Positions 8,831 through 33,194 of a stretch of 64,000 nucleotides of DNA are shown here, one piece after another. Where the stretch lies: the NCBI GenBank assembly GCA_947561395.2, contig OX387190.1, forward strand, positions 19,772,858-19,836,857. The letters run 5' to 3'. The position numbers and the translations under genes were made by a program. The notes beneath the pieces are model-generated. The model made no database searches. It had not been told where the DNA came from and was given only the letters and a program-made list of their open reading frames with translations. This stretch comes from Buxus sempervirens. Lineage: Eukaryota; Streptophyta; Magnoliopsida; Buxales; Buxaceae. Position 1 is the first letter of the stretch. Every line of letters begins with the position of its first letter.

Positions 8831-9081
8831 GTACTGAAAATCAAGCCAAACCAAAATAGAAATAAAATTGTTAAATTAAACCTAAAAGTGGCTTGCTTAA
8901 AAAATACTTAAATAAGTCATGTAAAAGTGGCTTGCTTAAAAATAATTAAAACTTTTTTATTTTATTTGGTTGGTTTCTATTTAGGTTGCACACGCACACG
9001 CATAATATTATATTATCTTCATAATCGATTTATTATTAGTAATATTTATTGCTTACAAAATTTTGTTTATATATGTTGCAG
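8831..9081 (+). other. GDSL gene intron remnant between Tat copy B and exon
   Basis: AT-rich intron sequence. It contains a 20-base direct repeat (AAAAGTGGCTTGCTTAAAAA) at about 8884 and 8925. It ends in TATATATGTTGCAG, a good splice acceptor. Confidence 0.6.
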
Positions 9082-12174: not shown

Positions 12175-12330
12175 GCGCGCGGATCCTCTGTGAAGCGCAT
12201 CGCCTGTGAAGCAAAGGCATCCTCTGTGAAGCGCAATCCAACGGACCAGAATAAGCGAAGGTTATAATAGTAATTTTGAACGAAACGCTTAAAAAACTAT
12301 TAAAACTCTCCTCGGCTCTCTCCTCGGCAA
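12175..12330 (+). repeat. Left terminal inverted repeat of MULE
   Basis: Starts GCGCGCGGATCCTCTG and matches the reverse complement of 33039-33194 base for base as read. It contains three CTGTGAAGC sub-repeats near the tip, candidate transposase-binding sites. Confidence 0.93.
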
Positions 12331-12770
12331 GACGAAAACGCGCGAAACATTTATATTATTTAACTTATAATCTTGTCCACGTCCGAACTTTCTCTGTTCT
12401 TACTCAGACATTTCTATGTTTACTCCGACATTGGCGGGAAAGGTGCTGTCTTTACTCTCACTTCGAAGAAAAGGAAGGCAGCTACCACAGTTCCACTTCC
12501 AAGTGTTAAAGAAGAAGGGACCACCACTCACTCCACCATTATGGGTTTCTATTTAAGACTCCAACAACCAATGTAAACCAGGTACATAAACAGATTTTTG
12601 GCCTTTTCCATTAATGTCAACCCCCGAAGATGGTGGAACCTTAAATAAATTGAAATGATGGTCGGGCGAACAATGCCGCGCCGCCACACATCGACAGGGT
12701 ACGCCCAGAAATAAACAGCTGTCAAATAAGCCATTACCACCCCCGAACAAGCCTTAGGTACCCACCGAAA
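12331..12770 (+). other. Left subterminal region of MULE
   Basis: No gene supported; open frames here are short and unconserved. It contains CACGTCCGAAC and other CG-containing words, like the right subterminal region. Confidence 0.5.
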
Positions 12771-13290
12771 AAATGTGAGGTTCACCACAATTAAGCCTTA
12801 GGTACACACCATAAGAACCTGTAGGTACCCACCAAAAAACTGCCAATAATGCCCTAGGTACCCCCAATTAAGCCAAAATAAGGCATAGGTACCCAAGAAA
12901 TTTTCGTAGGTATCCCAAATCGTCTGGCACCGATTAATCCTGGGATTTAATCGTGATGAAACAGAGACTTCATGTTCTCTGGAAAGTTAATCGGGACAGT
13001 CGCGATTAATCTTGAGATTAATCGCGAGACCTAATCTTGACTGGACGATTAGTCGTGGATGCTAATCGCGGATCTCACGATTAATCTCTGGGCTAATCGC
13101 GCGGACATGTTTTGTCTTTTTTTTGACTTTATTTGTTGCCAGTATATTCTATCTTATTTTAACCAAACCTATGGGAATGAAGAAGGTCCAAAACTTATGT
13201 ACCACCTTCGTACCCTTGGCGCACCGTAAAAATAATTCGTAGGTACCATGTGTGTAGGTACTAAGAAATTATTCCGACGTACTCAAGTTT
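12770..13290. repeat. GGTACC / GATTAATCG motif block 1 (MULE left end)
   Basis: About 12760-12910 has repeated TAGGTACCCACC-type words. 12930-13110 has many GATTAATC, TTAATCGCG and GATTAGTCG words in both orientations. 13180-13280 returns to GTACC words. The transposase gene's 5'UTR intron ends at 13419, so the block sits in or next to its promoter. A matching block lies at the other end (31800-32660). Confidence 0.8.
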
Positions 13291-13425
13291 TGTAATAAGC
13301 CGTCAAAATACACCAACTTGGCACATGGTTGAAGAGAATGGTTACCCTGTGATGTTCATGGGTACTATATATTGTTATTAGTATGATATTCTAAGTGGAA
13401 TATCTGTTTTATGTTGTAGGGACAA

Positions 13426-16161
13426 ATGGAGCAAGTCATTTGTACAAGTGGAAGTGAGCAATTAAGTGGAGATGAGGTTAGTGATGATATATCGGATATA
13501 AATACAGTGCCTAGAGTTGTAAGAGCACTAAGGTTCGATGACGGCGAAGGGCATACTCAAAATTTTAGGCCATCCGTGGGAATGGAGTTCCCATCTACCG
13601 ATGAAGTGTATAGATTTTACAATGCTTATGCAGCACAGAAGGGCTTCAGTATTCGAAAGAGTACGAGATGGAAAAGTCGGAAAGATGGTAAGGAGTTGTG
13701 TAGGAAGTTTTGTTGCTATAAAGAAGGGAAGAAGGGAATAGACAAACGGGATAAAGATGTGAAGAACCCTAGAAAGGAAACACGTACGGGTTGTTTGGCA
13801 CACATGAGTGTGAAAGCTCAAGACAATGGCATGTATTTTGTAGCGAGCTTTGAGGACGAGCATAATCATGAGGTTGTTACCCCAAGTAAGGTCCACATGC
13901 TACCTTCACAGAGGAAAGTTACAGAGGCGCAATTAGCAGAAATTGTATTAGCAGAAAGCAGTGGCATACGACCAAAGCATGCTTTTGAGTTCATGGGTAG
14001 AGAAGCCGGCGGAAGAGAGAATTTGGGCTTCCTACCTATTGACCATAAGAACCAGATTCGTGACAGACGGAGAGCAATGAATGTAGGAGACGGATCAAGG
14101 TTATTAATTTATTTTGAAGGACAACTGATTGACGATCCGTCTTTCTTTTATGCTGTACAAGTTGATGAGAACAATGAAATAACAAACTTTTTCTGGGCTG
14201 ATCGGAAGATGCAAGAAGACTACAATAATTTTGGAGATGTTGTTTGTTTTGATACAACTTATAGGACAAACGAAGCTCAAAGGCCATTTGCACCATTGGT
14301 TGGAGTCAACCATCACAGACGAATGGTAGTGTTCGGAGCCGCAATGCTTTATGATGACACGAAGGCATCCTTTGTTTGGTTGTTTGAAACATTTATAAAG
14401 GCAATGAATGGGAAAGGGCCAGTTACCATCTTGACAGACCAAGATGCAGCTATGTCAGCTGCAATTGCTTTTGTTTTGCTGAACACCTATCATCGGTTAT
14501 GTGTATGGCATTTGCACCAAAATTCATTGAAGCATCTCGGTCACATATTCCAAACGAGAACCTCCTTTTCATCTGATTTCAATCGGTGTATATATGATTA
14601 CGAGGAAGAGGCTGAGTTCTTGGAAGCGTGGGATGCAATGATTCAAAAATACGATCTCGAAGACAATGAGTGGCTGAAGGGCATATTTAAGATAAAGGAG
14701 AAATGGGCCCTTGTATATGGAAGAACTACATTTTGTGCTGACATAAGGAGCACCCAACTGAGTGAAAGCTTCAACAGCCGGTTAAAGAAATACACGAAGT
14801 ACAACATGGACGTCTCGTGTTTTTTCCAGCATTTTTCAAGGCTTTTGGATGATATCCGTTACAAGGAACAGGAAGACAATTATAATATGAGCCAGCGTAT
14901 TCCAAGAATGATGGCGGAAATCATCATATTAAAGCATGCAAGGGAGGTATACACACCGAAGCTGTTTGAGATTTTTCAATCGGAATATGCAAAAGCTCAG
15001 AATCTTGTTGTTAATGAGACTTCACATACTGAGACATCCAAAATCTATAAAGTTAGCTTATTTGATAATCCTCGAGGGCATGTTGTTACAGTTAACACTG
15101 AGGATGATATGTTGAAATGCAGTTGCCGTAAGTTTGAATTTGTTGGGATTTTGTGTAGCCATGCACTCAAAGTACTTGACATGCGAAATATTAAGAGGAT
15201 CCCAAGTCAATACATATTAAAGCGGTGGACAAAGGATGCAAAGGGTTGCAGCCCAAGTTATAGTCGTATGTCAGATGAGGAAGTGGCAAAGCTGTCCTTG
15301 GTTAAACGGTACAGAGAACTTTGCCATAATGCCGTTAAATTATCAGCAATTGCTGCCGAAACTTTCGAGGCATATGAATGTGCTGCGAATGGGCTGGCCA
15401 TTTTAATGACTGAAGTTGGAAATGTGCTGAAGAACAAGCCTCCGAGCACAGTGGATGTGAATGAAGGAGAGAATTTATCTGAAAATATCCAAATCACCGT
15501 TGCTGGACTGAAGAGGAAGCCAGGTTGAGGTCGTAGTGGACGTCGACCAAAACATTTTTCAGAAAGGGCTCCAAAGAGCAAGAGGAACCATGACAGACCA
15601 ACTCAAACGGCAAATACAATTCAGACTCAAACTCCACCACAAACACAATATGCAAGTCAAAGCTCTGGATGGAGTGAGACAATGGTATAATACTTACCTC
15701 ATACTAATGTATTTGTTTTATCATATCATGATTATGGTTTTATGGGGGATTTCTTATTTTTTATGAATTTTATGTATTCCATAGGCCTCTCATCAGTTTC
15801 GAACAGATGGAGTGGTGACGGGAATGCAATCGAGAACATATCCTATGGCTGAATATTCAATTTTGTCTCCATTCCAACAACCTGGTACTTACACACAGCT
15901 ACTACGGGTATATTTTCTAGAAGATCCTACTCTTCAATACTTTTTGAAGACTTTCAATGCTTTGCAATGACATTCCATTAATGACAGGAATCAATGAGTC
16001 CAAACATATTCCAAGAATCCAACTCAAGCAATACTGTTGGCCAGAATCAATTTGGCTCCTGTTCAAGCTCTACTGTAGGGAGATCTCCAGGAGTTTATAG
16101 TCGAGATGGGAGCGTATATCGTCAAGAAGGAGATTTAGATCATTTCCCTGGAGATTTGTGA
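13426..16161 (+). CDS. MULE transposase, FAR1/FHY3-like, with in-frame TGA near the C-terminus
   Basis: The ATG at 13426 follows a splice acceptor (TTGTAG, 13419). The first 700 codons are open. An N-terminal FAR1-type zinc-binding DNA-binding domain spans about 50-150 (FCC, GC, EHNH). The MULE transposase core has D276 (CFDTTY), D338/D340 (LTDQD), CVWH and E447 (SESFNS). A SWIM zinc finger lies at 565-579 (CSC...CSH). These are all the catalytic and metal-binding residues expected, so cut-and-paste activity is plausible. A TGA (15526-15528) then interrupts, but the frame stays open beyond it (GRSGRRPKHFSE...) to a donor at 15684. Two further exons, 15785-15907 and 15988-16161, join in phase and end in TGA, giving about 851 codons in all. 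The tail beyond the TGA is low-complexity, so the truncated 700-aa form may still work. It faces accessory gene 2 tail to tail. Confidence 0.9.
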
Positions 16162-16429
16162 TTCTTTTGTATATTGGTACGACAAGAAAGGGGGAGTGAA
16201 TTGTGTGTATTGAATGTGTACACAGTGTTAGTCCTGTAATTATATTGTTCTTGTAGTGCAATGTAAGTGTTCATTTTTTCTAATTGTACAAGGATGTGTA
16301 TGTACCAAATGTATACTTCCAGTGGAATGAGAATCGCAATTTTGAGTTAATTATTTAGTTCTGTTAATTGGTTAATATTTTCAGAGCTTCTTGCTGTTCC
16401 TCTTGCAAGTACATCCCAAATCAAAATAA

Positions 16430-16900
16430 AGTTCCCCCATTAATAACACAGGTACATCCAAAATCAACCCTTAGGCGCCACCCATAATGGCTCCCAAAAC
16501 CCCCCAATATATATATTTTGTACACCCCAACTGAAGAGTTAAGGTATCCCCTCAAACAACAATAAGAACCCACCCATTTGGACCTTAGGTACCGTAGATT
16601 ACGCGTTAGGTACCCACAATCATGCTTTAGGTACCCCACAAATAAGCGCAAGGTACCCTCTGCACAAATAGCATGACCCGCGTACATGGGATATCAACGC
16701 CCGAACGTTGCAGTACGAATTGGTGATTGAGATTTCAACGCGTAAACGTTGGTTCGTAACGTCCGCGCGTTATAAGGAAATTCTTCCTACTTCCTAACGT
16801 ACCACTTTGTTCCCTGTAATTATGCCCTTGTCCTCAAGGAATCCCCCCAATGATGCCTTAGGTAGCCCCCAAATGAGGCCCACTGTGCACCGCCAATCAT
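16430..16900. repeat. GGTACC / CG-palindrome motif block 2 (between transposase and gene 2)
   Basis: TTAGGTACC words at about 16583-16660, then AACGCGTAAACGTT and AACGTCCGCGCGTT words at about 16690-16775, then further TAGGTA-type words at 16855. It lies between the 3' ends of two convergent genes. Confidence 0.75.
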
Positions 16901-17091
16901 CTTTTCAAAGAAGGATCTGATTCGGAGTAGATTGATGGACAAAGTTATATCAAATGGAAACAACAGAGGATTATGATGCTGTAATTACGAATACTTTTAC
17001 TATGGGAAATGAGTACATTCTACACATCTGAGTTGCGTTGAGATAAAGACATTTATATCCAAAACATAGAAGTACGTCTAAAATCAGCACA

Positions 17092-18387
17092 CTATGGTGC
17101 AATGTCATCGTCATCAGACCCGGGAAGTGGTGGGAGGGATGGAGTCTGCTGAGTGGAGCAAGTGAAGAGATGAGTCACTATCTTCACGGCTTTCTTGACC
17201 AGCTTCTTTAGTCCACCAACTTCATGAGTGATAGATTCCTGAAACATTCCAAAATCACGTCGTAGACTGCCAAAATCCTCTCGAATTTCTCCAACGTCTT
17301 GGCTAAGCCTACGAAAGGCTTCTGACGACGGTCCACGTCGTGAATATGTCTTGAAAGAGCTGGGTTGAGAAGTGGGTGGACGAGGATGTGATGACGAAGG
17401 TTGTGCTGGCTCTGCTTCCTCTCTTTGTTGTGGCTGCTGTTGGTGCGCCATTGATTCTTCGGATCTCTGAGCCGCGTGACAGTGGTGGTGCAAAGGTGCA
17501 AGTTGCATTTGATTTAGATTCATCTGTGAAAATTGCCTTGAAATAACCATGGAATCAGAAGGTCCACGTAAACCAAACCTCATCCCAATCCTGGTCATAA
17601 GATAGGCAAACGGAAGGGCTCTGGGACGAGATGAATGGACAACTTGACATATATGTCTGCAAATGAATGTGGGCAGACAAAGGCGCGTCCGAGTAATGAG
17701 ACGGTAGAGAAGGAAGACCATGGGCTTGGTCAGCTCGAACTTATTACCGCACCTAGGATAGACATTGAATGTGAAGATGAGATGGAGTATTCTATACGCA
17801 GGGAAGAGCTGATTAGCTTGAAGCATAGTCTTTTTCCATGGTGCATCAATCCCACACAGACATTGAGTGGCCTCAGCAAGTTCCTCTTGCGTTTGTGGGT
17901 TCAGGAAACGGATCTCTGATCTAGGTATACCCATTAGATCACTTATCAAGTCAGGTGTGACAGTATATGTAGAGTCTGCCACTTTGATCTCAAATGCAGG
18001 CTCACGAAAAGGAGGGGTGGACAAGTTACGGGATCCGGCATAAAGTTGAGCAACAGTCGAGGAGTTGGCAGCATCCCCCCAATCTAGAATGCCGGACCAA
18101 CCAACAGCTTCCAGAATCTGTACAATACCATATGGTTCTAAACATGATCTAAGAACCGGTTTCTCAACAATCAAGGGTCGCTGCCGAATCTGCTCGGCTT
18201 CAGAAGGTGCAGACGATGAATTATCAGGAGAATAAGGCTCCCTGTGGATGGTAGACTGAGAGGGATTGAGTTCCTCTGTCTCAGAAGGGCTGTAATGAGA
18301 GCCGGAAGATAATGAGGGACTTGCAGGTGCAGGAGTCCTATCCCTTCTCCTCTTATGGCGCATGCTAGAATTCTTTGTTCGAGGCAT
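17092..18387 (-). CDS. MULE accessory gene 2 (putative plant transposon protein domain)
   Basis: Single-exon 431-aa protein. I chose the ATG at 18387 (MPRTKNSS, followed by a basic RHKRRRDR stretch that could be a nuclear signal) over the in-frame ATG at 18600, whose extra 71 residues look like untranslated sequence. Residues about 85-275 resemble the widespread 'putative plant transposon protein' domain: WSGILDW, VTPDLISDLMGIPRS, LFPAYRILHLIFTFNVYPR and LPFAYLMTRIGMRF. The C-terminal third is Gln/Pro/Ser-rich, then a heptad-like stretch (EIREDFGSLRRDF), then an acidic end (DDDD). Biochemical function is unknown. It shares the domain with accessory gene 3 of the same element, so the two are probably an old duplication. 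Confidence 0.75.
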   Translation of the reverse strand: MPRTKNSSMRHKRRRDRTPAPASPSLSSGSHYSPSETEELNPSQSTIHREPYSPDNSSSAPSEAEQIRQRPLIVEKPVLRSCLEPYGIVQILEAVGWSGILDWGDAANSSTVAQLYAGSRNLSTPPFREPAFEIKVADSTYTVTPDLISDLMGIPRSEIRFLNPQTQEELAEATQCLCGIDAPWKKTMLQANQLFPAYRILHLIFTFNVYPRCGNKFELTKPMVFLLYRLITRTRLCLPTFICRHICQVVHSSRPRALPFAYLMTRIGMRFGLRGPSDSMVISRQFSQMNLNQMQLAPLHHHCHAAQRSEESMAHQQQPQQREEAEPAQPSSSHPRPPTSQPSSFKTYSRRGPSSEAFRRLSQDVGEIREDFGSLRRDFGMFQESITHEVGGLKKLVKKAVKIVTHLFTCSTQQTPSLPPLPGSDDDDIAP

Positions 18388-18649
18388 GATTTGAGAAAAT
18401 GACAGAGAACAAAACAATGTTCGACACAACTCACAGTGGAAACTTGGTGGAGCCAAACCGTAAACCCCGTATATTTGGCCTTGAGTTGGAGAGTATACAG
18501 ACTTGGAGAACCCTGGAAGAAACAGGAAGTGCGTATACCGTAGATTAATCGTGATTTGGAGGCGAGAGGCAGCAGAAAACAGTGGAATAAGGGGACCCAT
18601 GCGTAGGAAACCCTAGATTACTCGTGAGTACGAAGTGGAGCGAAACCCT

Positions 18650-18960
18650 CTATTTATACACCCAAACATAAACCCTCGCTTGTGCGCATACAAATAATAC
18701 ATACGGCCGCACGATTAGTCGTACAAATCAATAGATTAATCGCATGCTTAATCGCCATGTTCCGATTACGCATGGGACCTAACCCTGATGAAACAGCGAC
18801 TTGCTGTATGAAAATATTATATTTTTATGATATAATAATGTGTCTAGAAATCATGGGAAAGGTATTGAATGATGTGAGAGTTTATAACATTCATGTCACG
18901 TTATGAATGTGACTCATGTAAGATATGTGCACGTATTTTTGAACCTTCAATACATACAAA
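18650..18960. other. Upstream region of accessory gene 2
   Basis: Presumed promoter. It holds a small cluster of GATTAGTCG, GATTAATCG and TTAATCGCC words (about 18700-18760), like the element's end blocks, and the phrase CCTGATGAAACAG also found near 12953. No gene seen. Confidence 0.5.
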
Positions 18961-19959
18961 TCTGAGTACCCTCTAAAGAAGGCCATGCTACCCCAGACTT
19001 AAGCCCAAGGTACTGTGAAAAGTTTTCCAAAACGTGACCCCATGAAAAGAGAACCAATAGCACAGAGTTGTAGCGAGGTAACCCAAGAAATACAACCACG
19101 GCACCCCTCAAAAAATTCTAAGGTACATCAGGAAAAAAACCAAAGGTGCCCCCCAATAATGCCTTACGGTTGCCACAATGAAGAAGCCAGGTACTGTATG
19201 GGTACCCCACATAACACGCAGGTACCCAAAAAAACATATGAAGGTACCCCATACAATAGCGCGCGAAAGGTCCTTCAGAAAGCGCGCGCTTCAGTTGTCC
19301 TCTTAATCCGGAACGTGCGGGCGTTAAAGACAAACGTCCGCGCGTTGACGTCTGTGCCCCTTTCCTTCTACGGGGTACCTTACCTATAACACAGGGGTAC
19401 CTTCTTATTATATCATTGGGTACCTTAGTTTTAACTGGGGTACCTGTGGCCTACCCTAATATGCGCGTCTGTGCTTGTACATACATGTGTACAAATACAT
19501 ACAAGCAGCCGATACACAACAAAAAATGTACTTACAACTGTGCAAACAGGAACACACACACATATAAACGCAGGTATATATGTGTGTGCGTGGGTACACG
19601 TACAGACATGTGTACACATGCCAAGTACGTCATAGGTACCCCAACTAATACGTGGATACCCACGCATAGGGAATGAAGGTACCCCATACGTAAGGCGAAG
19701 GTACCCAATATGAGGAATTACTAAGAAAAGTTAATGCGCGGACGTTAAAGTCAAACGTGCGAGCGTTAAAGCTAATAAAGCGGCAACGATCTTCTTCGGC
19801 CAGAACGTTCGCGCGTTAAAGACCAACGTCCGCGCGTTGACTTCTGTTCACCTCTCCCTCTACCGGGTACCTTCGTTTTGAAACCGGGGTACCTTCGTAT
19901 TATATAGTGCAGTACCTTAGTTTTAATTGGGGTACCAGGGGCCAACCATAATATACGCG

Positions 19960-21560
19960 TCTATGGTCGTACATACATGTGTACACATACATACAAGCAA
20001 GCTGGTACACACCAAACAATGTACTTACATGTGTGCAAACAAGAACACACATGTACCCAGGTCTGTACATGTGTACACATGTACATGATATATGTGTACA
20101 CAAGTACATGTTCTTTAACGTGTACATGTACGGACATGTGTGCACATGTACACACATGTCTACATCTGTTCAAATGCATGTAAATGTACATGTATGTGTA
20201 CAAATGTACACACATGTACATGTGTGCTCATATTGACATGTGTAAGCATGTACACATGCACACACATGGGCACATGAGTTTACACACACGCACATGTGTA
20301 CACATATACACATGTGTAAATGTGTACACAGATGACAATGTCCATGTGTACATTTGTAAGGTACATCAGCAAACAAGCCAGAGGTGCCCCCAAATGATAA
20401 CTTACGGTAGGCACAATTACGAAAACAAATACGTCATAGGTACCCCACATAAAACGTGGGTACCCAAACAATAACATTACGGTACCCCATACTGATGGCG
20501 AAGGTACCATATATAAGGAATTACTAGGAAACATTAACGCGCGGACGTTAAGGTCCAACGCGCGAGCGTTAAAGCTACTAATGCGCGTCCGACAGCTGTC
20601 TTCTTCGGCATGAACGTTCGCGCGTTCATGACCAACGTCCGCGCGTTGACGTCTCTTCCACTTTCCTTCTACAGGGTACCTTCGCTTTTAAAACAGGGGT
20701 ACCTTCGTATTATATCCTTGGGTACCTTATTATTATTTGGGGTACCTGTGTCCTACGCTAATTTACGCACCTGTGCTTGTACATACATGTGTACAAATAC
20801 ATGAAAGCAGCCGATACACATCAAAAAATGTACTAACATGTGTGCACAGATGACAATGTCATAGGAACCCCAACTAATACGTGGGTACCCAAGGATAGGG
20901 AATGAAGCTACCCCATACGTAAGGCGAAGGTACCCAATATGAGGAATTACTAGGAAACGTTAACGCGCGGACGTTAATGTTGCACGCGCGAGCGTGAAAG
21001 TTATTATTGCGCGTGCGACAGCTCTCTTCTTCGCCGGAACGTTCGCGCGTTAGAGACCAACGTCCGCGCGTTAACGTCTGTAGCCCTTTCCTTCTACTCG
21101 GGTACCTTCGTTTTAACACCGGGGTACCTTCGTATTATATCTTGTGCTACCTTAGGTTTAAGTGGGGTACCGGTGGGCTACCCTAATATATGCTTCGGTA
21201 CATGTGTTTACATGTGTACAAATACATACAAGCAAGCCTATACACATCAAAGAATGTTCTTACATTTGTGCACAGAAGTACACATTTTCCTGTGTGCGTG
21301 GGTACACATACATGTACACAAGTACATGTTCTTGTACGTGTTTACATGTACAGAAATGTTAGACATGTACACACATGTCTGTACATATGTAAACATGTAT
21401 GTACATGTACATGTGTACACACATTTACCTGTACCTGTGCACACACATGTAGATGTTTACAAATGTACACACATGGGCACATGTTTATACACATATACAT
21501 GTGTAAACATTGGTACATGTCTACTCATATATAAATGCACATGTTTACACGTATACACAG
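19960..21560 (+). repeat. Left arm of 4.5-kb imperfect inverted repeat
   Basis: Pairs with 22870-24470 in reverse complement: corresponding positions sum to about 44,430 throughout (for example 20362 with 24070, 20605 with 23825, 21180 with 23250). Similarity is high, and the stretch around the CG-palindromes is nearly identical. The spacer is 21561-22869. Confidence 0.8.
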
Positions 21561-22119
21561 AGAATAAGCCAAAGGTCACCACCACCACCACCCCCCCCCC
21601 CATTGATGCCTTACAGTAGCCACAATTAAGACGCCAGGAATTGTATGGGTACCCCAAATATAACGTAGGTACCCAACAAATAATATGAAGGTACGCCATA
21701 GGAAAGGCGAAGGTACCCGAAAGAGGAATAACAAAGAAACATTAACGCGCGGACGTTATTGTTCAACGCGCGCGAACGTTTAAGCTATAAGGGAAGTTAA
21801 CGCGCGAGCGTTTAGAAGAACGTCCGCGCGTTAATGTTCTTTACGCAGAGCACATCCTGAGGTACCTTCGGTGTAATGCGGTGTACACCAATATTTCTTG
21901 GGGAGTACCTGAATTTTACAGGGGTACCCATATCGGATTTTTTAACTTTTACCCTTTGGAACAACTAAAGGCATGTATGAGGGGTACCCATACAATTCCT
22001 GGCTTCTTAATTGTTGCCACCGTAAGGCAATATTGGGGCGCACCTTTGGCTTATTCTCTGATGTACCTTAGAGTTTTTCAAGGCGGCGCGCCTTGGTCGT
22101 AATTCTTGGGTCCCTGAGC

Positions 22120-22430
22120 CATGTACACGTGTTCATGTACGTTTGTTTACATATGTACAAAGTGTATATGTGTACACATGTACATGTATATATGCGTGCA
22201 CACACATGTACACATGTGTATATGTGTAAACATGTAGATGTATATATGAGTAGACATGTTCACATGTGTATATGTGCACACATGTATATGTGTGTAAACA
22301 TGTTCCCATGTGTGTACAGGTATAAACATGTACATGTATGTACAAAGGTAAAGGTACATGTGTGTACACATGTACATGTACATACATGTTTACACATGTA
22401 CACATGTATGGACATGCACAGAAGCGATAT
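22120..22430. repeat. TGTACA/ACATGT minisatellite near the centre of the array
   Basis: Dense repetition of TGTACAC, ACATGTG and TATATGTG words with an irregular 6-12 bp period. Other blocks of the same type lie at about 19470-19630, 19970-20365, 21190-21560, 22780-23240 and 24075-24470. Confidence 0.85.
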
Positions 22431-22869
22431 TAGGGTTGGCCACAGGTACCCCAATTAAAACAAAGGTACCTCAATATATAATACGAAGGTATCCCGGCTT
22501 AAAAACGAAGGTACCCAGTAGAGGGAAAGGGGAACCGACGTCAAGGCGCGGACGTTGGTCTCTAACGCGCGAACGTTCCGGCCGAAGAAGACCGTTGTCG
22601 CTTTATTAGCTTTAACGCTCGCGCGTTTGACTTTAACGTCCGCTCGTTAACTTTTATTAGTATTTCCTCATATTGGGTACCTTCGCCTTACGCATGGGGT
22701 ACCTTCATTCCCTATGCTTGGGTACCAACGTAGTAGTTGGGGTTCCTATGACGTACTTTTCTTCGTAACTGTGCCTAACCATACATTTGTACACATACAT
22801 TTACATTTATATGCATTTGAACAGATGTAGACATGTGTGTACATGTGTACATGTGTACTCATATATGTG

Positions 22870-24470
22870 TAAACATGTACATTTATATATGAGTAGACAT
22901 GTACCAATGTGCACACATGTAGATGTGTGTAAACATGTGCCCATGTGTGTACATTTGTAAACATGTACATGTGTGTACACAGGTACAGGTACATGTGTGT
23001 ACACATGTACATATACATACATGTTTACACATGTACACATGTGTACATGTACACACATGTCTGTACATGTCTACAAATTTCTGTACCTATAAACACGTAC
23101 AAGAACATGTACTTGTGTACATGTACGTATACCCACGCACACACATTTGTGTAATTGTGTACACACATGTAAGTACATTCTTTGATGTGTATAGGCTTGC
23201 TTGTATGTATGTGTACACAAGTAGACACATGTACCGAAGCGTATATTAGGGTAGGCCACAGGTACCCCACTTAAACCTAAGGTAGCACAAGATATAATAC
23301 GAAGGTACCCCGGTGTTAAAACGAAGGTACCCTGTAGAAGGAAAGTGGAAGAGACGTCAACGCACGGACGTTGGTCATGAACGCGCGAACGTTCCTGCCG
23401 AAGAAGACAACTGTTGCACGCGCAATAATAACTTTCACGCTCGCGCGTTCGACTTTAACGTCCGCGCGTTAACGTTTCCTAGTAATTCCTCATATTGGGT
23501 ACCTTCGCCTTACGTGTGGGGTAGCTTCATTCCCTATCCTTGGGTACCCACGTATTAGTTGGGGTTCCTATGACATTGTCATCTGTGCACACATGTTAGT
23601 ACATTTTTTGATGTGTATCGGCTGCTTTCATGTATTTGTACACATGTATGTACAAGCACAGGTGCGTAAATTAGCGTAGGATACAGGTACCCCAAATAAT
23701 AATAAGGTACCCAAGGATATAATACGAAGGTACCCCTGTTTTAAAAGCGAAGGTACCCTGTAGAAGGAAAGTGGAAGAGACGTCAACGCGCGGACGTTGG
23801 TCATGAACGCGCGAACGTTCCTGCCGAAGAAGACAGCTGTCGGACGCGCATTAATAGCTTTAACGCTCGCGCGTTGGACTTTAACGTCCGCGCGTTAATG
23901 TTTCCTAGTAATTCCTTATATATGGTACTTTCGCCATCAATATGGGGTACCGTCATGTTATTGTTTGGGTACCCACGTTTTATGTGGGGTACCTATGACG
24001 TACTTGTTTTCGTAATTGTGCCTACCGTAAGTTATCATTTGGGGGCACCTCTGGCTTGTTTGCTGATGTACCTTACAAATGTACACATGGACATTGTCAT
24101 CTGTGTACACATTTACACATGTGTATATGTGTACACATGTGCGTGTGTGTAAACTCATGTGCCCATGTGTGTGCATGTGTACACGCTTACACATGTCAAT
24201 ATGAGCACACATGTACATGTGTGTACATTTGTACACATACATGTACATTTACATGCATTTGAACAGATGTAGACATGTGTGTACATGTGCACACATGTCC
24301 GTACATGTACACGTTAAAGAACATGTACTTGTGTACACATATATTATGTACATGTGTACACATGTACAGACCTGGGTACATGTGTACACATATATACATG
24401 TACATGTGTACACATGTACACACATGTGTACAATCATGTGTACACACATATACAAATGTACATACATGAA
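22870..24470 (-). repeat. Right arm of 4.5-kb imperfect inverted repeat
   Basis: Reverse-complement partner of 19960-21560. It contains the same order of TGTACA minisatellite, GGTACC words and CG-palindrome pairs, mirrored. A transcript across it could fold into a long hairpin. Confidence 0.8.
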
Positions 24471-25187
24471 CGCTCGGACGTTTTCGTGAACAAAACCCGT
24501 TGGGACACTTTAAAAAAGTTAAAAGGCTCTGGGGACGACACATATTTAATATCAACGCGCGCACGTTCTCGTGAACGCTCGGACGTTCGCTTCGGGTTTG
24601 TGTACCGCCGCGTTTTTGCATGAGGTATCCCCACATTTTGCCTGGGGTACCCCAATCATAAACCGAAGGTACCCTTTGAAGAATTCCTTATGTTTTGGCA
24701 AATATTTAATATCAACGCGCGCACGTGCTGGGCGCGTGTGTTCGGGCGTTTGCCTATATTTACAAAGAAACAGGTCTGGGGCGTTATTTCGTCCATGCGA
24801 ATCAAAGCCATCCGAAGCGCTTCATCTTCATTGCGATAAAGTCTTCTCAGGGTGGGTACCACTTCTCTTCTGGAAGAGTTCCAAAGCCTATATTTCTGGT
24901 TCGTAGGACTTACGAGATGCTTTACGAACTTTACTGCTTTGATTTTATATGTTACGATTAGGGTATTAATTTGTTCATTTAGGGTTTCCGATCTATGTGT
25001 TTATTCTAATGTCTTGAAGAGGTACATTTTGGTTTATCTTCGTCGGAATGGTTTATATTATCGGTTGCAATCAAGTTACTATTCACTTTTCCTATAAGCC
25101 TTTGACAAGTACACATCCCTATTGTTATCTCCCTGACACGTGAATAACGCCTGCACTTTTTCCTCAAGTGTTGGGGTTTTTTTTTTT

Positions 25188-25199
25188 ATGTATATAGGG
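25188..25199 (+). promoter_or_regulatory. Putative TATA box of accessory gene 3
   Basis: ATGTATATAGGG follows a T-run and lies about 150 bp before the start codon at 25352. This is the only TATA-like word in a suitable place; assignment is inference. Confidence 0.5.
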
Positions 25200-25351
25200 A
25201 GTGGGTTTTTTCCACACAATTATTCATATTATTCACATTCTATATTATTTGCATTCGGTAGCACTCATCTTTTCTGTGTCTAACATTATCGTTTGCTATG
25301 TGTTGTTTTGTGCATATTTATTTTTCTTCCTCTCTTCTTCTGAAATCTTAG

Positions 25352-27190
25352 ATGGCCCCTAAGACCAGAGCCTCATCTTCTAAACCTAAGAAATCCTCCA
25401 GGACAGCCAATAAGAAACGCAGGATTGATTCATTTGATAATTCAATCTTCATCGATCGGCAGGCCAAGAAGCTGTACGAGAATGATTTCAGCCACAGACA
25501 AATCTTGCTTGAAAGAGGGGTTATTCTAGAAGACTTCCCCGAGTCTATTAGTGCAGCATTTACCGGGAGGGGATGGGATAACCTCTTCACCAACTTCCTG
25601 CTCCCATCCCAACACCTAGTATATGAATTCTATTCAAACATCCACAACATCGCAGACGGTCCATCCTTCGATACCTCTCTCAGAAGGCAGCCCATCCATG
25701 TAGATTCTGATACCATCGCTGGGGCCCTAGGTATTCCGAGAGTTGAGAATCCTGAATTCCCGTATGTTGATGCTCCCTTACCACAATTGCTCAATGAAGT
25801 GGCTGCTTTTTTACTGACCACTGAGAGGGAGGGGGACTATGAGGGCAAAGCTCTGGATTCCTCCAAGTTTACATTTGACACCTCATTCATATACAAAATC
25901 CAATGCTTTAACGTTGCGCCGGTGAGTCACAGATCAACTGTGCCTCCTATGAGGGCACTCTTGCTTTATGCATTGGTCAACAGGCATTCAATTGATGTTC
26001 CCACCATCATGATTTCGACTATGCTTGACTGTTTGCTCGATACCAAACGTAGGTGTGGACTTCCTCTCGGGTGTGCCATTGCAAAGATAGTCAAGATGCA
26101 TCAAATTGACTTCCCCGAGTATGAGTTACTTGCTCCCCTTCCTCCTATCAATATTGCAACATATAATAAGTCCAAGGGGCAATACAACAAGTCTCATCCT
26201 CCACCCCCTCCCCCTGTTCCAGGGGTCCATGCGCCTTCTCCTCCATCTCCTCCCCCTGCTGGTGAAGATGCTCCTACTCCTCCACCCCCTCCCCCTGTTT
26301 CAGGGGTCCATGCGCCTTCTCCTCCATCTCCTCCCCCTGCTGGTGAGGATGCTGCTGCTCCTCCATCTCCTCCCCCTACTGGTGAAGATGCTCCTGCTCC
26401 TCCATCTCCTCCCACTGCTGTTGAAGATGCTCCTGCTCCTCCATCTCCTCCCCCCAATGTTTCTATAGGACATGAGCATGATCTTCCTCTCCTGGAGTCT
26501 GCTACACATGATCAACCTGTGGAACATGATATTCCATCCTCATCGACGCCTGCTCCTGCTACTGCTCCTATAGACCAAACAACTTCTTCCCAATTTCCTC
26601 GTGGACTCGCATCAATCCTTTCACAGGTTATGGGCATGCAATGTGAGTTGATGAATCAAACCAAGCTACTTCTTGAGAACCAGGAGACGATGAAGCAGCA
26701 GATAAAACAATTGTACGATGGTCAGCTTGCATACAAGCATGAAACTGATCGCCACGTTGCTAAGATGGAACATCTTCTTCAGAACGTAGAAAGTGACACC
26801 TACTCTGTGAGAAAGGATGTACGAGAAGTGATTAAGCCGAAGTTTGCACAAATTGACAGCAAGTTGAGTTGGGTGAGGTCAACAGTATGGAATTCTGATG
26901 ACACACTAAAAGCAGTGCATCAGAAGCAGATCAGGCTGAACGAGATATATTTGGAGATGCAACAAGACTACAGCCGGGCCATGAAGCACTTTGAATTGGA
27001 AAATCAGGAGCTTCACAGGCTGAATAGGGACAAGGGAGAACGGAGGACAGTTGTCGATGCAGCTTCTCAAGGTGTCGTTGGAGAGCATATTCCTCCAAGT
27101 GATGAGGAGTACATTCGAGATGAACATTTGTTGCTTGAACCCCTTGAGCCTGCACACAAAGTTCCTGATCCAGCAGGGCCTGCCCCATAG
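25352..27190 (+). CDS. MULE accessory gene 3 (putative plant transposon protein domain, proline-rich)
   Basis: Single open frame of 612 aa, starting MAPKTRASSSKPKK with a basic, nuclear-signal-like N-terminus (KKRR). Residues about 75-265 match the same 'putative plant transposon protein' style domain as gene 2 (GRGWDNLF, VDSDTIAGALGIPR, VPPMRALLLYALVNRHSID). Residues about 285-375 are tandem Pro-rich repeats (PPSPPPAGEDAP type) encoded by a 60-odd-bp DNA repeat at about 26200-26455. Residues about 420-575 look coiled-coil (QTKLLLENQETMKQQIKQL...). The C-terminus is acidic/Pro-rich. No catalytic motif is recognised. It is transcribed away from gene 2 and towards the ULP gene. Confidence 0.78.
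   Translation: MAPKTRASSSKPKKSSRTANKKRRIDSFDNSIFIDRQAKKLYENDFSHRQILLERGVILEDFPESISAAFTGRGWDNLFTNFLLPSQHLVYEFYSNIHNIADGPSFDTSLRRQPIHVDSDTIAGALGIPRVENPEFPYVDAPLPQLLNEVAAFLLTTEREGDYEGKALDSSKFTFDTSFIYKIQCFNVAPVSHRSTVPPMRALLLYALVNRHSIDVPTIMISTMLDCLLDTKRRCGLPLGCAIAKIVKMHQIDFPEYELLAPLPPINIATYNKSKGQYNKSHPPPPPPVPGVHAPSPPSPPPAGEDAPTPPPPPPVSGVHAPSPPSPPPAGEDAAAPPSPPPTGEDAPAPPSPPTAVEDAPAPPSPPPNVSIGHEHDLPLLESATHDQPVEHDIPSSSTPAPATAPIDQTTSSQFPRGLASILSQVMGMQCELMNQTKLLLENQETMKQQIKQLYDGQLAYKHETDRHVAKMEHLLQNVESDTYSVRKDVREVIKPKFAQIDSKLSWVRSTVWNSDDTLKAVHQKQIRLNEIYLEMQQDYSRAMKHFELENQELHRLNRDKGERRTVVDAASQGVVGEHIPPSDEEYIRDEHLLLEPLEPAHKVPDPAGPAP
26200..26458 (+). repeat. In-frame minisatellite coding Pro-rich repeats
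   Basis: Units such as CCTCCATCTCCTCCCCCTGCTGGTG recur about six times within accessory gene 3, all multiples of three in length, giving PPSPPP...GEDAP peptides. Confidence 0.85.
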
Positions 27191-27539
27191 TCTTGAACCT
27201 CTTTTCATGTCATCTGAGTATCGAATGCATCTTATTTGACCATCTTTTTTTACTTATGTGCCTGTAAAACGTTGCGATAAGTGCATGCAAAGCAAATATT
27301 GTTTGGTCTTAGCTTTCATTTGTCATATTCCTCTATCTCCCCAATACACACACATTGGGTCTAGCACGTCGTAATGCGTGTACATGCAAAACAACCAGTC
27401 GAAGTTGCTGGTTATATTAGCCTATGGTAATGAACTTCCACCTACAAGACTAAGGTATTATACGAAATGATTAAAATCTGCAACGAAGGCCGTGGGAAGA
27501 CGGGGAATGCAAAAAAAGTCAGCTTATATTAATCTTAAT

Positions 27540-28145
27540 CTTGAGATACCCTTCCAAACGTGCCTACGTATCCCCCAAATCAACACAGGGTACCCCCCAC
27601 ACGAGCCTTAATTTATCCACAAAAAATACTCCAAATTAAGGGGAGAGTACCTCCAAGTAACACTTAGGTACCCCAAAGGTAAATTTGAGGTACCCCACTA
27701 GAAACCCGAAGGTACCCACACGTACAAAATAGTGGGAGCACATTCAACGCGCGAATCTTTCCTGGTAACGATCGCGCGTACTGTGCACTTTAAAGCTGCA
27801 ACGTGCGGGCGTTAATGATTAACGTCCGCGCGTTAATGATTAACGTCCGCGCGTTTTGTTCATTATCAGTTCCTACTTGGGGGTACCTCCGGCTTACTTT
27901 TGGGTTACCTTAATATTAATTTTGGGGGTACCTGGGTATTACTTAGGGGTACTTTGGCTTATTTGCTGATGTAACTTAGGCTTATTTCGTGGGCGCCTTG
28001 GCCTTATTTCGGCGTGTACGCAACTCTTATTAGGTGACACCTAAGCTTATATGGGGTGCGGATGGTACATTGTGCCGGTTACGGGGTTACCTTAAACTTC
28101 ACACGAACCGTACCTTCATTTTGTTTTGGGGGGGAGTACCTAATG
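27540..28145. repeat. GGTACC / CG-palindrome motif block 4 (between gene 3 and ULP gene)
   Basis: GGTACCCC words at 27588-27720, then AACGCGCGAATC, AACGTGCGGGCGTT and two AACGTCCGCGCGTT words at 27745-27855, then GGGTACCT words to about 28140. It lies between the 3' ends of convergent genes. 28146-28481 is AT-rich 3' flank with nothing recognised. Confidence 0.8.
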
Positions 28146-28481
28146 TATAGTAACTTATTTTAAAATTTGGCATAATTTACGATCAACGAGTTTGACGAAT
28201 CTGTGGCAGAACTTAAGCAATCAAAATAACCAAGCTTTTATTCAATGGATACAATATCCTATGTACACAATACTTTACAAAAATATGATCGTGAAACATC
28301 ATAAAAAACTAAACATGCCATAAAAGTAAAATCCAAGTGAATGCTTGATTCAGCTACAGCATTCATTACAGGAACATCCTTGTCCTCAAATAAATTCATA
28401 CAGATTCCCCAAAAATTAAAATTTTAGTTTGTAGTGTGACGCATGTATAATATAAAAATGTTAATACATCGAACTCTCCCC

Positions 28482-31400
28482 CTAGGTAGAACTCTTCTTC
28501 ACAATATCATCCTTCACCGTGTTTTCTTCGTGGAGGATCATCTCACTCACAATGCTTCTTCTGAATCCCGGAATATCATTCTATTCAAAATTAACAAAAC
28601 TATATTAATAATGTGATCATTTGGAGCTTTTGAAAACACAACTGGATAGGTTAGGAGTTGTAGCGTACCTGCGTGAATGGAGGAGAAAGTTCTCCTCTCC
28701 AGAAAGCGGCGAACTTCATGGCGAAGATTCCACAGTCATGGCTACAAAAGATGCGAGTACAAGTTAATGCTATTAATATCATATCGTAGTAAGTATAGAA
28801 AAGAAAGAATAGGTGGAAAACGTACGGGTTGCCTTGCCGAGGAAGCTTAAGAGCCTCTGCTTTCGTCCTTGGAAATTTGCTTACTAAAACTTGCTTTTCC
28901 CATTGCCAGGTGCATATAATATCTACTGCTTTTAGCTGAAATATAAAAATTGATACTTAATAACAACATTAGTGACACAAGAAATTATTACGCTGATCAC
29001 TTACCACTCCAGTGAGAACTTCACGGGTTCTCCACACCTTCATCGAGTTCAAAAAAAAGACTTTCTTTTTATTCATGTCAACAACACACATGTACCAATG
29101 TTCTTGCTCCAATATAGGGAAAAACAACTGCATACAAACATATTTATTAGCCCTACCCTATTAAAAGATCCCAGCAACAATGGTGAGTTAAGCTTACCAT
29201 TTTGTAGTTCACTATATTCAGTAGGTACGATGGATCAAATTGATCATTAAGTCTGGTAAGTTCTCGGTTTTCTTCTGCCGCGCAAAAAGTCTGAAAAGTT
29301 ATAATATAGGTTCAACAGGAGTATTACAGACAGTGTCAAATTCTTTTGAAGAATGTCGTAATAATTACCCCAATATCTGACAGGAAGAAGTAACATGGGC
29401 CTCCAACCTGCTGTTCCTGGAAATTCAGCATCCGCATGTAGCAATCCAAGATCTACATAGAAAAAAATAAAATCTAAGAATCCAAATATTTATGCGATCT
29501 GACAAGATACTTAGGTTGTTAGACTCCTACCCAGTTGGTAACCCATTTCTCAGGCTTCAAACATTCGAACTCACTGCGGGCAATGAAGACATCAAAGAAT
29601 CTCACCAAAACCTCGCTACATATATATCCCACAAAAGAAACAGTCAAACCATACTCAACAATTTACAAAGCAACAACGCGTCAAACATAAATATGCGAAA
29701 GTACGTACTCTGGATCGAGGTCCTCACGGAATGCATAGTTGCAGACCGCGCTTCCAGCATCCACATGCGTCCTACTAGAAGATGCATCCACTGGTTCGCT
29801 TGCCTACAAGTTTATTAAAAATTCCAAAAAATGAATATATGGCTGTCAACCTAATTCTAACCGAAAAACAAAAACAATTCCTTTAGAAAAACTGAGAACA
29901 AACATACCAATGGCTGTATGGACAGATCTGCAGTGTTCAGATCCGGCAACAACCTAGCCTCCGCACGATCATCATCGTAAGATGGTACCTGAAATATATT
30001 TCATGTAGGTCACACGATCATTACATCGACAATATTGCTCTTCAATCTACTATGGTAAAGTTTTACATGAATGGTTGACATGCAATTAGACATCCAATTA
30101 TATACTACTTACCGTTTGCGTTGGCCTCTCGGCATCGAGCGGTTGCTTACTCTTTCTGGCCCTCTTCTTTTTCTCCCCGGTGATGGTTGTAAAAGGACTC
30201 CTTTTTGCCTTGCCGGGAATCTTCATTCGTTTCAATCTCGGAGCCTCAATGGGTTGAAATGGAACGATTGAACCTTCATATTCTCCCGCTGTTGGATCCG
30301 GGATACATTCCGCCCTAGGTTCAATATCTTCCATCGGCGACACCGGGCAAGGGCCCTCCGGTGCAGAAGCAACGTTCACTGGAATCTCAAATGGTTCACG
30401 TGGACATTCAGGGGTAGGGTAGCTTCGGTAGTCACGAGCATATCCAACAAGCTCGAGAACCATCTCTCTTAGTTCAGCTTGCCCTACTCCAAGATTGCTT
30501 ATCATCAACTTCAATCTCTCCACCTAAACAAATCAAGCCACAAACATTTGCATTTCTATAAGATCTGGAACTTATAATGAATAATGACAAAAACCGATTT
30601 CCATTACCTCCTTCTCCAAAGCCTTCAATCTCGGGGATTTGGCTACCTCACGCTGAAGGGCAGCAACTACCTTTGTTAGCTTCTTTATCGCTGCCCTCAG
30701 TTTATCCTCCTAAAACACATAATCAAGTAAAATTTATGTCCATGTACGTATAATGAATATTGATATTGAGTACCCCCTATTCGAAAATATAAATACAATA
30801 CAATATAATATACCTTCTTCCTCCCCTTTGATTTATCGGACTCCGGAACATTTTCATATTCAATATGTTCCGGAATATTCATGTCCTTTTCCTTTCCTTC
30901 TTTCTCCCTTTCCAACACATCCTCATCATTCCACACGGTGATGAGAGGAGCTGTTGCATCCAACTCTATCGCGCTCCCATCCATGCGCAAGCATTCATAA
31001 TAGAACATCTGCGATTGATTAAACATTTCTTCTATTACAATTTAAGCATACCAAATATATGAAATGTGTGTATAACAATAATTTACCTTTAGAAAAACCA
31101 AACAACCACCGACATATATTTGGTGCTTCTCCTTGTATCGGCGGATTGCAGCAATGAGCCAATCAAGAACCAACTTCGACCAGTTGAGGGTACGGAGTCC
31201 CTCCATATCCATTATGAGATTTAAGAACTTTGTGCTGGCCTCCGGCTTAGCTTGAGGGCATAAAAATGAGCCCAATGCAAGCAATACAAAAAGCCTCAAA
31301 AAATCTTCATCCGCCGTCTCCTTCTCTTGTAGTCTTCTCTCCAGCTCTCCTAAAGGTATCTTACCTTTATCATCACAATACATTTTCTTTAATTCTGTGA

Positions 31401-31707
31401 GGTCATTTTCCACCTCATCGATTTCTATACTCTCCCCGGCAGAGGTCACCCCCAATATCCGCTGAACATCAGGAGGTGATATCTCAAATGTCCTTCCACT
31501 TACTTCAAGGCAACATTTTTCGGGATCAAATGAAGCCAATAAGGACACAATGTTGCCCTTATAACAGTGTTTAATCGTCATATCCAGAAGGCTTCCCAGC
31601 CCAATTTCTCTAACAGCTAGCTTCTGGGACTCGTTCAACCTTTTGATAATTTTTAGAAGTCGTTGAGGACTACATCTATTGCGAACTCCTTCCCCACTTG
31701 GTGCCAT
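28482..31707 (-). CDS. Ulp1-like (C48) cysteine protease of MULE, 13 exons
   Basis: Thirteen exons with GT...AG junctions that join in phase to 723 codons: 31707-31087, 31008-30814, 30709-30608, 30523-30113, 29988-29908, 29803-29709, 29615-29531, 29452-29369, 29290-29198, 29127-29005, 28935-28826, 28741-28669 and 28580-28482. Exon 1 carries a helical domain (SLLDMTIKHCYKGN, FEISPPDVQRILGVTS) like those preceding Ulp1 domains in plant transposons. Exon 4 has a basic, nuclear-signal-like stretch (KRMKIPGKAKR, KKKRARKSK). The protease core occupies exons 7-12: FFDVFIARSEF, catalytic His in EHWYMCVV, FLNS where Asp-Ser is usual, and catalytic Cys in HDCGIF. Ulp1 proteases cleave SUMO-type isopeptide bonds; the substrate of the transposon-borne versions is unknown. 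Confidence 0.88.
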
Positions 31708-31799
31708 TTATCTACAAATAAATACATAAATTGATAAAAAAAACTTTGCAATGTGACTATTTACATGTGCCATCTATAAAATCAAAATGTAAATTGAAA
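31708..31799 (-). promoter_or_regulatory. Upstream flank of ULP gene
   Basis: AT-rich 5' flank directly before the ATG at 31707. No clear TATA box; motif block 5 follows at once. Confidence 0.3.
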
Positions 31800-32660
31800 T
31801 ACGCCTTACGTACCCCACAAATATGCATTTTGTACCCCACAAATAAGAATTGGGTACCCACAAATAGGCCCCCTAAATTGGTTTACGTACACCTACAAAT
31901 TGGCTTACCAAAACCCAATTAAGCCTTCGGTACCCCCAACAAAATAAGGCTTTCGTACCTCACAAATAAGCCTTGGGTATCCCCAAATATCCTCCCCCCC
32001 CCCCCCCCACCCCCACCCAAAATGTTCTAGGTACACCCCAAAAATGCCTTGGTACAAACAAGTGAGCCTTAAGTACTAGCCCCCTAAGCCTTGAGTAACC
32101 CACCAATTATGAATTAATTGGGGAGGGGAGAGGAATCTAAGCCTTACTTCCCAAGATTTTCATCACGATTAAGTACAGGATTAATAGTGACCTGGCGATT
32201 AGGTACGGCGATTAATCAGACGACGAATCGCAGATTTGCGATTAACTGTAAGCAGTGAAACATTGTCTCTGTTTCGTAGCGATTAGGTCTCAGGACAAAT
32301 CGCCGAATCACGATTTCAGGAAGTACCTTAGACCTATATTGGGGATACCTTGGGCTTATATTGTGGGTACTGTAGGTTTAGGGGGTACCTTAGGCTAATT
32401 TTCGTGAGTGGGTTTGGCTTACCATGGGGTACCTTAGGTTTATATGGGAGCTACCTTAGGCTTATATGTGGTACCTTGGGCTAAGAGTGGGGTACCTTAA
32501 TCTGATTTGTGGGGTACCTTAGGTTTATTTGTTGACTACGAAAATGTTTTTTGGGGAGCTCTTCGGGCGTACCTAAAGCTTAACTCGGCAGGTACCCATC
32601 GTTATTTGGAGCAGTACCTTTGGCTTATTTCGCCTGGTACCCATGGCTCCTTATGATACA
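31800..32660. repeat. GGTACC / GATTAATCG motif block 5 (MULE right end)
   Basis: GTACCCCACAAATA-type words (31805-31990), a C-run (about 31990-32010), then GATTAATCG, GCGATTAGG and AATCGC words (32160-32320), then GGGGTACCTTAGG words (32330-32645). The same three-part order, mirrored, makes block 1 at the other end. Confidence 0.82.
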
Positions 32661-33038: not shown

Positions 33039-33194
33039 TTGCCGAGGAGAGAGCCGAGGAGAGTTTTAATAGTTTTTTAAGCGTTTCGTTCAAAATTACT
33101 ATTATAACCTTCGCTTATTCTGGTCCGTTGGATTGCGCTTCACAGAGGATGCCTTTGCTTCACAGGCGATGCGCTTCACAGAGGATCCGCGCGC
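33039..33194 (-). repeat. Right terminal inverted repeat of MULE
   Basis: Reverse complement of 12175-12330, ending CCGCGCGC, then the target duplication CACTTTGAC (33195-33203). Confidence 0.93.

Follow-up and report, generated by a model that had tools for sequence, protein, structure and literature searches.

Structure of the Element and Its Genes

The window analysed here, 64,000 nucleotides of the Buxus sempervirens genome (assembly GCA_947561395.2, contig OX387190.1, positions 19,772,858 to 19,836,857 of the forward strand), contains a complete Mutator-like element (MULE) of 21,020 bp at positions 12175–33194. Its non-coding DNA carries arrays of short, regularly spaced palindromic words, foremost among them GGTACC, which are likely to be sites for a sequence-specific DNA-binding protein encoded by the element itself.

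The element is bounded by terminal inverted repeats (TIRs) of 156 bp each (12175–12330, plus strand; 33039–33194, minus strand) that are 100% complementary, and the 9-bp target duplication CACTTTGAC was read directly on both sides (12166–12174 and 33195–33203). A MURA-type transposase and the combination of TIRs with a target duplication of the 9–10 bp class define it as a MULE. It is inserted in a copia-type Pol frame that is continuous across the empty site (determined by eye; the Pol_BBD match is weak, E 0.0097). The word CTGTGAAGC is present three times in the left TIR (12188, 12204 and 12224) and again at 32827. GGTACC does not occur in the left TIR, and neither TIR contains sites of the two main words described below.

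Gene 1 (13426–15528, plus strand) encodes the MULE transposase with FAR1 DNA-binding (E 5.6e-26), MULE (PF10551, E 2.1e-24) and SWIM (E 1.8e-7) domains. An in-frame TGA is located at 15526–15528; the same frame is open past 15528, and a second copy of the element (see below) has no stop there. Gene 2 (17092–18600, minus strand, 502 amino acids) and gene 3 (25352–27190, plus strand, 612 amino acids) both code for proteins with a PF20167 (Transposase_32) domain (E 2.6e-13 and 3.1e-20, respectively) and are mutually related (E 3e-6). Gene 3 also contains a proline-rich tandem peptide repeat (26197–26454). Tandem peptide repeats in variable regions were reported for the VANC proteins of VANDAL elements (PMC5735166).

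Gene 4 (28482–31707, minus strand) was predicted by GT-AG reading and comprises 13 exons and 723 codons without a stop. Its C-terminus matches Peptidase_C48 (Ulp1; E 9.5e-15): the His and the Gln...Cys of the protease align with SENP2, and the Asp position is occupied by Asn. The N-terminus shows weaker similarity to PMD (E 7.8e-6) and to DUF1985, with E 1.7e-4 and 22.0 bits for the full-length protein and E 3.7e-5 and 24.2 bits (Pfam cut-off 35.1) for the frame of the first exon. A search against solved structures returned SUMO proteases for the C-terminus of gene 4 and otherwise three chitin synthase chains (E 1.7). It gave no useful match for genes 2 and 3, and no VANC structure was found; unpublished VANC structures are mentioned in meeting reports (PMC8756742, PMC12859917). 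Common ancestry of genes 4 and 2 was considered and is not supported by BLASTP (E 0.16). Among viral contigs no relative of gene 3 was confirmed, and none of gene 1 was found.

Motif Words in the Non-Coding Stretches

Three words are distinguished here: A (GGTACC), B (AACG-N6-CGTT) and C (GATTAATC-type). The window contains 82 copies of GGTACC, 78 of them within the MULE, and 77 of these 78 fall into its five non-coding stretches (11,396 bp; mean 4.6, maximum 9 in 200 dinucleotide shuffles). The only copy within the genes, introns included (9,312 bp; shuffle mean 0.8, maximum 5), spans a splice acceptor of the predicted gene 4 model, and the 42,962 bp of flanking DNA contain four (mean 4.3, maximum 10). 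When the stretches were shuffled individually (100 shuffles each), GGTACC was above its shuffle maximum in all five: 5 copies at the left end (mean 0.4, maximum 2), 4 in the gene 1–gene 2 gap (0.3 and 3), 53 in the centre (2.9 and 8), 6 in the gene 3–gene 4 gap (0.4 and 3) and 9 at the right end (0.4 and 4).

AACG-N6-CGTT is a 14-bp word and the better-defined second word of the element; it accounts for a CGCGCG signal in the centre. It was found 34 times outside the genes, never within them and twice in the flanks (shuffle means 0.21, 0.05 and 0.14). An earlier sequence-only reading of this DNA had noted that the motif thins out or vanishes inside coding regions and had proposed a comparison with shuffled sequence. 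The observation is confirmed by these counts, with 1 of 78 A words and 0 of 34 B words in genes, and motif density exceeds that of shuffled sequence, with 77 copies of GGTACC outside the genes against at most 9 after shuffling. An unbiased scan of all 6-mers ranked AGGTAC, GGTACC and GGGTAC highest in the four small gaps, and CGCGCG, ACATGT and GGTACC highest in the centre. The longer words AACGCGCG and CGCGCGTT are confined to the MULE with all of their window copies (14 of 14 and 17 of 17).

The third word, GATTAATC, has six copies outside the genes (shuffle mean 0.17), one in genes and one in the flanks. Together with related words it forms arrays at ~12930–13105, 32160–32310 and 18705–18770 (the last read by eye), that is, upstream of genes 1, 4 and 2; by eye, no such array was seen upstream of gene 3. 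AACG-N6-CGTT is absent from both end blocks, and the GATTAATC-type word is present there instead.

The left-end block (12757–13270) consists of a GGTACC array, the GATTAATC-type array and GGTACC again. In the gene 1–gene 2 block (16430–16900) four GGTACC words 21–22 bp apart are followed by three AACG-N6-CGTT units, and a reverse GGTACC array is absent. The largest block (18955–24880) occupies the centre and is composed of eight modules and a partial ninth. A single module with grammar of the central type and diverged linkers makes up the gene 3–gene 4 block (27540–28145). The right-end block (31800–32660) contains a GGTACC array in plus orientation, the GATTAATC-type array (here ~32160–32310) and a GGTACC array mostly in minus orientation. 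Blocks had been proposed to occupy every intergenic space of the element. Their coordinates proved right to tens of bases, but the gaps are not filled by them: exact GGTACC is absent from 12331–12750, 15529–16430, 18600–18950, 24880–25350 and 27190–27540.

Spacing Grammar and Modules

Of the 77 steps between adjacent GGTACC words, 32 measure 20–23 bp and 12 measure 42–45 bp. The period of 20–23 bp corresponds to about two helical turns. For a spacing test over nine blocks the A site was relaxed to GGTAC or GTACC. Of the steps of up to 70 bp, 31 of 54 measured 20–23 bp, and the phase concentration at 21.5 bp was 0.61, compared to 0.43 or less in 1000 random placements. The optimum for a single turn is broad and lies at 11–12 bp, not at 10.5 bp. 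The fuller A unit approximates AAATAAGCCTTAGGTACCCCC in the ends and gaps and TAANACGAAGGTACCCCA in the centre. Its orientation, assigned by script from the flanks of the core, changes in runs.

These runs define a module, in which convergent GGTACC arrays bracket AACG-N6-CGTT units. The eight central modules are located at ~19190–19460, 19620–19955, 20425–20765, 20855–21190, 21630–22010, 22430–22740, 23245–23565 and 23670–24010, the partial ninth at ~24460–24870, and one further module in the gene 3–gene 4 gap. Convergent A sites (forward on the left, reverse on the right) enclose 28 of the 34 B units; the six exceptions (three forward-forward, three reverse-forward) belong to the gene 1–gene 2 block (three) and to 24469–24574 (three). 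Neighbouring B units are separated by 21 bp (12 pairs) or 20 bp (2 pairs), and the distance from B to the relaxed A site is 36–37 bp on the left (5 cases) and 36–38 bp on the right (10 cases).

Between the modules, alternating purine-pyrimidine arrays of ACATGT/TGTACA were observed (20030–20350, 21190–21550, 22100–22410, 22770–23230 and 24010–24460); ACATGT occurs 93 times in the centre (shuffle mean 7.8). The central block also contains an inverted repeat of 987 bp with 98% complementarity.

Slower Change of the Motif Cores

The modules were aligned without the partial module 9. Among six related central modules (modules 1 and 5 and the gene 3–gene 4 module left out), 10 of 77 motif columns were variable, compared to 80 of 213 linker columns (p 4.6e-5). 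The gene 3–gene 4 module was compared to the eight (mutually non-independent) central modules and was identical at 517 of 612 motif positions versus 875 of 1809 linker positions; none of 473 shifts of the motif mask gave an equally good result.

A second full copy of the element was found on contig 1 (within 10083200–10104600). It contains all four genes, whose longest matches are about 89–97% identical (scores are lower for gene 4 fragments spanning introns), as well as 73 GGTACC words and 27 B units. Comparisons with this copy refer to the aligned parts (high-scoring segment pairs of 86–97% identity), which include 317 of the 612 codons of gene 3. In a symmetric test, which considers sites intact in either copy, 16 of 468 A core positions were changed versus 144 of 2051 nearby positions (p 0.003), and 6 of 256 B core positions versus 83 of 985 (p 3e-4). 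Counting sites intact in the window only, a version biased toward the cores, gave changes at 8 of 437 A, 5 of 248 B and 210 of 2769 linker positions.

The genes were compared in the same way. Gene 4 differs between the copies by 11 synonymous and 21 non-synonymous changes, which corresponds to a ratio of non-synonymous to synonymous change (pN/pS) of 0.52 without a stop. For its N-terminal part the changes are 7 synonymous and 5 non-synonymous (pN/pS 0.19); both ratios are based on few changes. The values for genes 1, 2 and 3 are 0.53, 0.50 and 1.33, with 2, 2 and 1 stops in copy 2, again small numbers.

Arrays and Relatives across the Genome

We counted the motifs in the 677-Mb assembly and used the reversed pattern as control. 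Triple GGTACC arrays are present at 4,310 places (control 21). GGTACC pairs 20–23 bp apart number 10,264 (control 995), while pairs 24–33 bp apart are not above the control (1,278 versus 1,640). Genome-wide, spacings of about two turns are therefore preferred to slightly larger ones. Among the matches listed, the two-turn spacing is seen in arrays with different linkers.

Exon 1 of gene 4 has at least 151 matches, with identities from 100% to 37% (150 of 2,254 candidates were scored). Among the matches listed, 14 loci, including that of the window, share the top score with 100% identity, which suggests a recent expansion. The best 30 of the 151 loci, again including the window's, have 9–10 GGTACC words within 1.5 kb upstream.

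Eight further array loci were inspected, which are the first rows of one listing for contig 1 and not a random sample. Two of them are elements of 0.5–0.6 kb with related TIRs and with 11 and 9 GGTACC words, without a match to genes 1–4; a 9-bp duplication is likely in one and uncertain in the other. At two other loci, L008/L009 and L012/L013, 22-bp GGTACC arrays end shortly before TATAAAAG, and neither TIRs nor relatives of genes 1–4 were detected there. These arrays may represent promoter sequence of a different element family.

Comparison with Known Systems

The VANDAL elements of Arabidopsis are the closest parallel to the arrangement described here. There, methylation is lost through the action of VANC21 and VANC6 on short motifs that are tandemly repeated in non-coding DNA (PMC5735166, PMC10398659). 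VANC proteins carry DUF1985 and DUF287, and repeats of the VANC21 motif occur in the introns of VANB21 and VANC21 (PMC5735166). The element in the window is likewise a MULE with short tandem motifs in non-coding DNA that are rare in coding DNA. One of its accessory genes, gene 4, may also be similar in having a DUF1985-like part, for which the match is weak and under the Pfam cut-off. It differs by its palindromic words in a two-word grammar and by two extra PF20167 genes. According to work by Sasaki in 2022, motif density and helical periodicity reportedly determine the specificity of VANC.

Two further differences concern the ends and the accessory domain: VANDAL TIRs are degenerate (PMC10398659) whereas those of the window MULE are perfect over 156 bp, and VANC proteins possess DUF287, which was not detected in gene 4 (E up to 1) or in genes 1–3. 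For these two reasons we do not file the element as a VANDAL. KIU/KAONASHI-type MULEs are similar in combining an Ulp1 (C48) domain with a DUF1985/PMD-like N-terminus, and Ulp1 is also present in some VANC genes; KIU elements are described as non-TIR MULEs (PMC13317346), unlike the window MULE with its long TIRs and additional PF20167 genes.

The gene 4 product is the first candidate for a reader of the arrays, since its matches, weak to DUF1985/PMD and strong to Peptidase_C48, are to domains that VANC and KIU genes are reported to contain. In the En/Spm system, short repeated sites for the element protein TnpA are linked to demethylation, as is proposed for the window MULE. The sites are subterminal only, and the transposase belongs to a superfamily other than that of MULEs. 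En/Spm is also mentioned in PMC10398659.

Interpretation of the Arrays and Alternative Explanations

Taken together, the arrays are non-genic, phased and slower to change than their surroundings, are kept in gene-less relatives and are absent from the TIRs. On this sequence evidence, the proposal of the sequence-only reading that they are sites for an element-encoded DNA-binding protein still appears to be the best one. That the arrays are retained in two relatives without genes argues for a cis-acting role that is served in trans. While sites for an element-encoded protein are likely, the explanation as a whole, with composite cis-acting sites that let a MULE-encoded protein recognise the DNA of its own family and with the mechanism proposed below, is about as probable as not. 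Anti-silencing as their purpose, suggested by analogy to VANC, might or might not apply with about equal probability. The gene 4 product may be the main reader, an assignment that we make tentatively from its domains.

According to the proposed mechanism, the gene 4 product with its PMD/DUF1985-like and Ulp1 parts would read the sites, perhaps together with the PF20167 proteins of genes 2 and 3. Reader molecules would line up along one face of the helix throughout the element's non-coding DNA and, once bound, would remove or block silencing marks in a VANC-like manner. Autonomous and non-autonomous copies would thereby stay active. A functional analogue of VANC had been anticipated in accessory gene 2 or 3 and built from a different domain. 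The analogy as such is plausible, but gene 4 and not one of the PF20167 genes is the best candidate, with its weak DUF1985/PMD match and its C48 domain resembling VANC and KIU genes.

Several observations weigh against this interpretation. The PMD and DUF1985 scores of gene 4 are under the Pfam cut-offs, no DUF287 was found in the four genes, and the introns of gene 4 contain no A array, unlike those of VANB21 and VANC21. The perfect TIRs are another departure from VANDAL elements. Gene 3, one of the potential partners of the reader, shows no sign of constraint in comparison to copy 2 (pN/pS 1.33). The slower change of A is modest, with 3 of 17 control 6-mers changing no faster than A, and across 30 near-identical right ends the contrast between core and linker is not significant (3 of 60 versus 52 of 761, p 0.79), which is explained by too little divergence. 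CpG retention was considered as a sign of hypomethylation and rejected: the observed/expected ratio of the blocks of up to 1.05 drops to 0.48–0.82 when B is masked (genes 0.37–0.75), so that it is mostly due to the B word itself. Finally, 6 of the 8 further array loci lack a detectable TIR, and in five of these six (all except L001) no relatives of genes 1–4 were found within ~20 kb (E 1e-5). GGTACC arrays are thus not confined to this MULE family. There is a precedent for arrays outside their own family, as VANC6 motifs are present in AT9TSD1, which is unrelated to VANDAL (PMC5735166).

Other proteins could bind the same arrays. If the gene 1 transposase did so by its FAR1 DNA-binding domain, they would act as transposition enhancers. 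TnpA of En/Spm binds subterminal repeats, and the two small relatives have retained TIRs and GGTACC arrays without a match to genes 1–4, as if both were needed for movement. However, most sites lie kilobases inside the element, and its middle holds the largest block. Moreover, A and B are absent from the TIRs, which have their own threefold CTGTGAAGC instead, and this argues against plain transposase sites; we consider a role as transposition enhancers unlikely. It is similarly improbable that the arrays recruit a host transcription factor, e.g., an SBP-box (SPL) protein, and function as promoters or enhancers. The SPL core site is GTAC, which is common to GGTACC and the spacer word TGTACA and is found 186 times in the centre (shuffle mean 67), and the arrays that stop shortly before TATAAAAG at two other loci would be in line with such a function. 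Nevertheless, enrichment extends to the G and C that complete the palindrome around GTAC, the B word lacks GTAC, and sites are present in all five non-coding stretches including both tail-to-tail gene gaps, which argues against ordinary promoters alone.

The blocks could also be hairpin or satellite by-products of tandem and inverted duplication, any action being as a source of double-stranded or small interfering RNA. The inverted repeat of the central block fits this explanation, and two modules fold far better than shuffled sequences (z −13.3 as RNA, −8.4 as DNA). In contrast, the gene 1–gene 2 block (z −1.3) and the right-end part 32300–32660 (z +0.3) do not, so that a hairpin as common feature was rejected: it holds for two of four folded pieces and is not accompanied by covariation. 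Compensatory changes affect 3 of 105 consensus pairs with an unfavourable covariation term, and the cores are slower to change than the linkers. We therefore consider by-products of duplication very unlikely as an explanation of the blocks.

A Second Pairing of Gene and Array in the Flanking Element

The MULE is flanked by a Ty3 element (39623–62916, with an inverted copy at 1–8833), whose long terminal repeats (LTRs) are 99.6% alike. Its domains (reverse transcriptase, two types of RNase H, gag with G-patch) lead us to infer that it is of the Ogre/Tat type. It contains antisense PMD/DUF7745 frames at 43899–45092 and 47085–47879. PMD genes were found in 57% of Ogre elements (PMC6317226), and Retand elements carry family-specific tandem repeats and antisense genes with predicted DNA-binding products (PMC11963269).

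This element has a palindromic array of its own. The window contains 25 copies of TATCCG-N11-CGGATA, of which 24 belong to the two Ogre-type copies and one to a related LTR (at 37006); gag-pol, the copia pieces and the MULE have none. In 39623–60639 there are 11 occurrences and none in 100 shuffles. All 24 copies in the Ogre-type element conform to TATCCGG-N9-CCGGATA, which has 28,399 occurrences in the genome (reversed pattern 5). They form clusters, mostly with a 39-bp period, within the LTR, ahead of gag, and both upstream of the PMD frames and in the space separating them; one cluster (46786–46925) overlaps an open frame of 152 codons, and its non-coding status is assumed. The related LTR (34342–37084; aligned over 34342–36670, about 72% alike) contains a degenerate array of 39-bp units (consensus ...TATCCGAAATAAAATTTCG) in approximately the corresponding place. 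The core of these units is different, which looks like evolution of the motif between related families. A tandem array of 71-bp units was also seen before gag of the Ogre-type element (57266–58700).

Two unrelated elements of the window pair a PMD-type gene (in the MULE by a weak match) with an array of their own, the MULE with words at a two-turn spacing and the Ogre-type element with a 39-bp period. The likeness consists of a PMD-superfamily gene in a mobile element together with a private palindromic array; the Ogre-type element differs in being an LTR retrotransposon, and in word and spacing. We found no report that ties such PMD-type genes to private motif arrays, in a literature search that did not reach most subscription papers, so that this absence is unproven. 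It is conceivable, though rather doubtful, that PMD-superfamily proteins (PMD, DUF1985, DUF7745, perhaps PF20167) are general self-recognition factors of mobile elements, each lineage pairing its own gene with a private array of regularly spaced palindromes in non-coding DNA. The three words of the MULE may have their counterparts in its three accessory proteins.

The VANDALs of Arabidopsis, which have degenerate ends, are a known case of transposons with sequence-specific anti-silencing. If our interpretation is true, a very large, TIR-bearing MULE with the same logic and a richer two-word grammar would widen this system, and the thousands of sites in one genome would make the code testable. 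Should the parallel to the Ogre-type element hold as well, it would point to what PMD-type genes do in a major lineage of plant retrotransposons and provide a motif for testing this.

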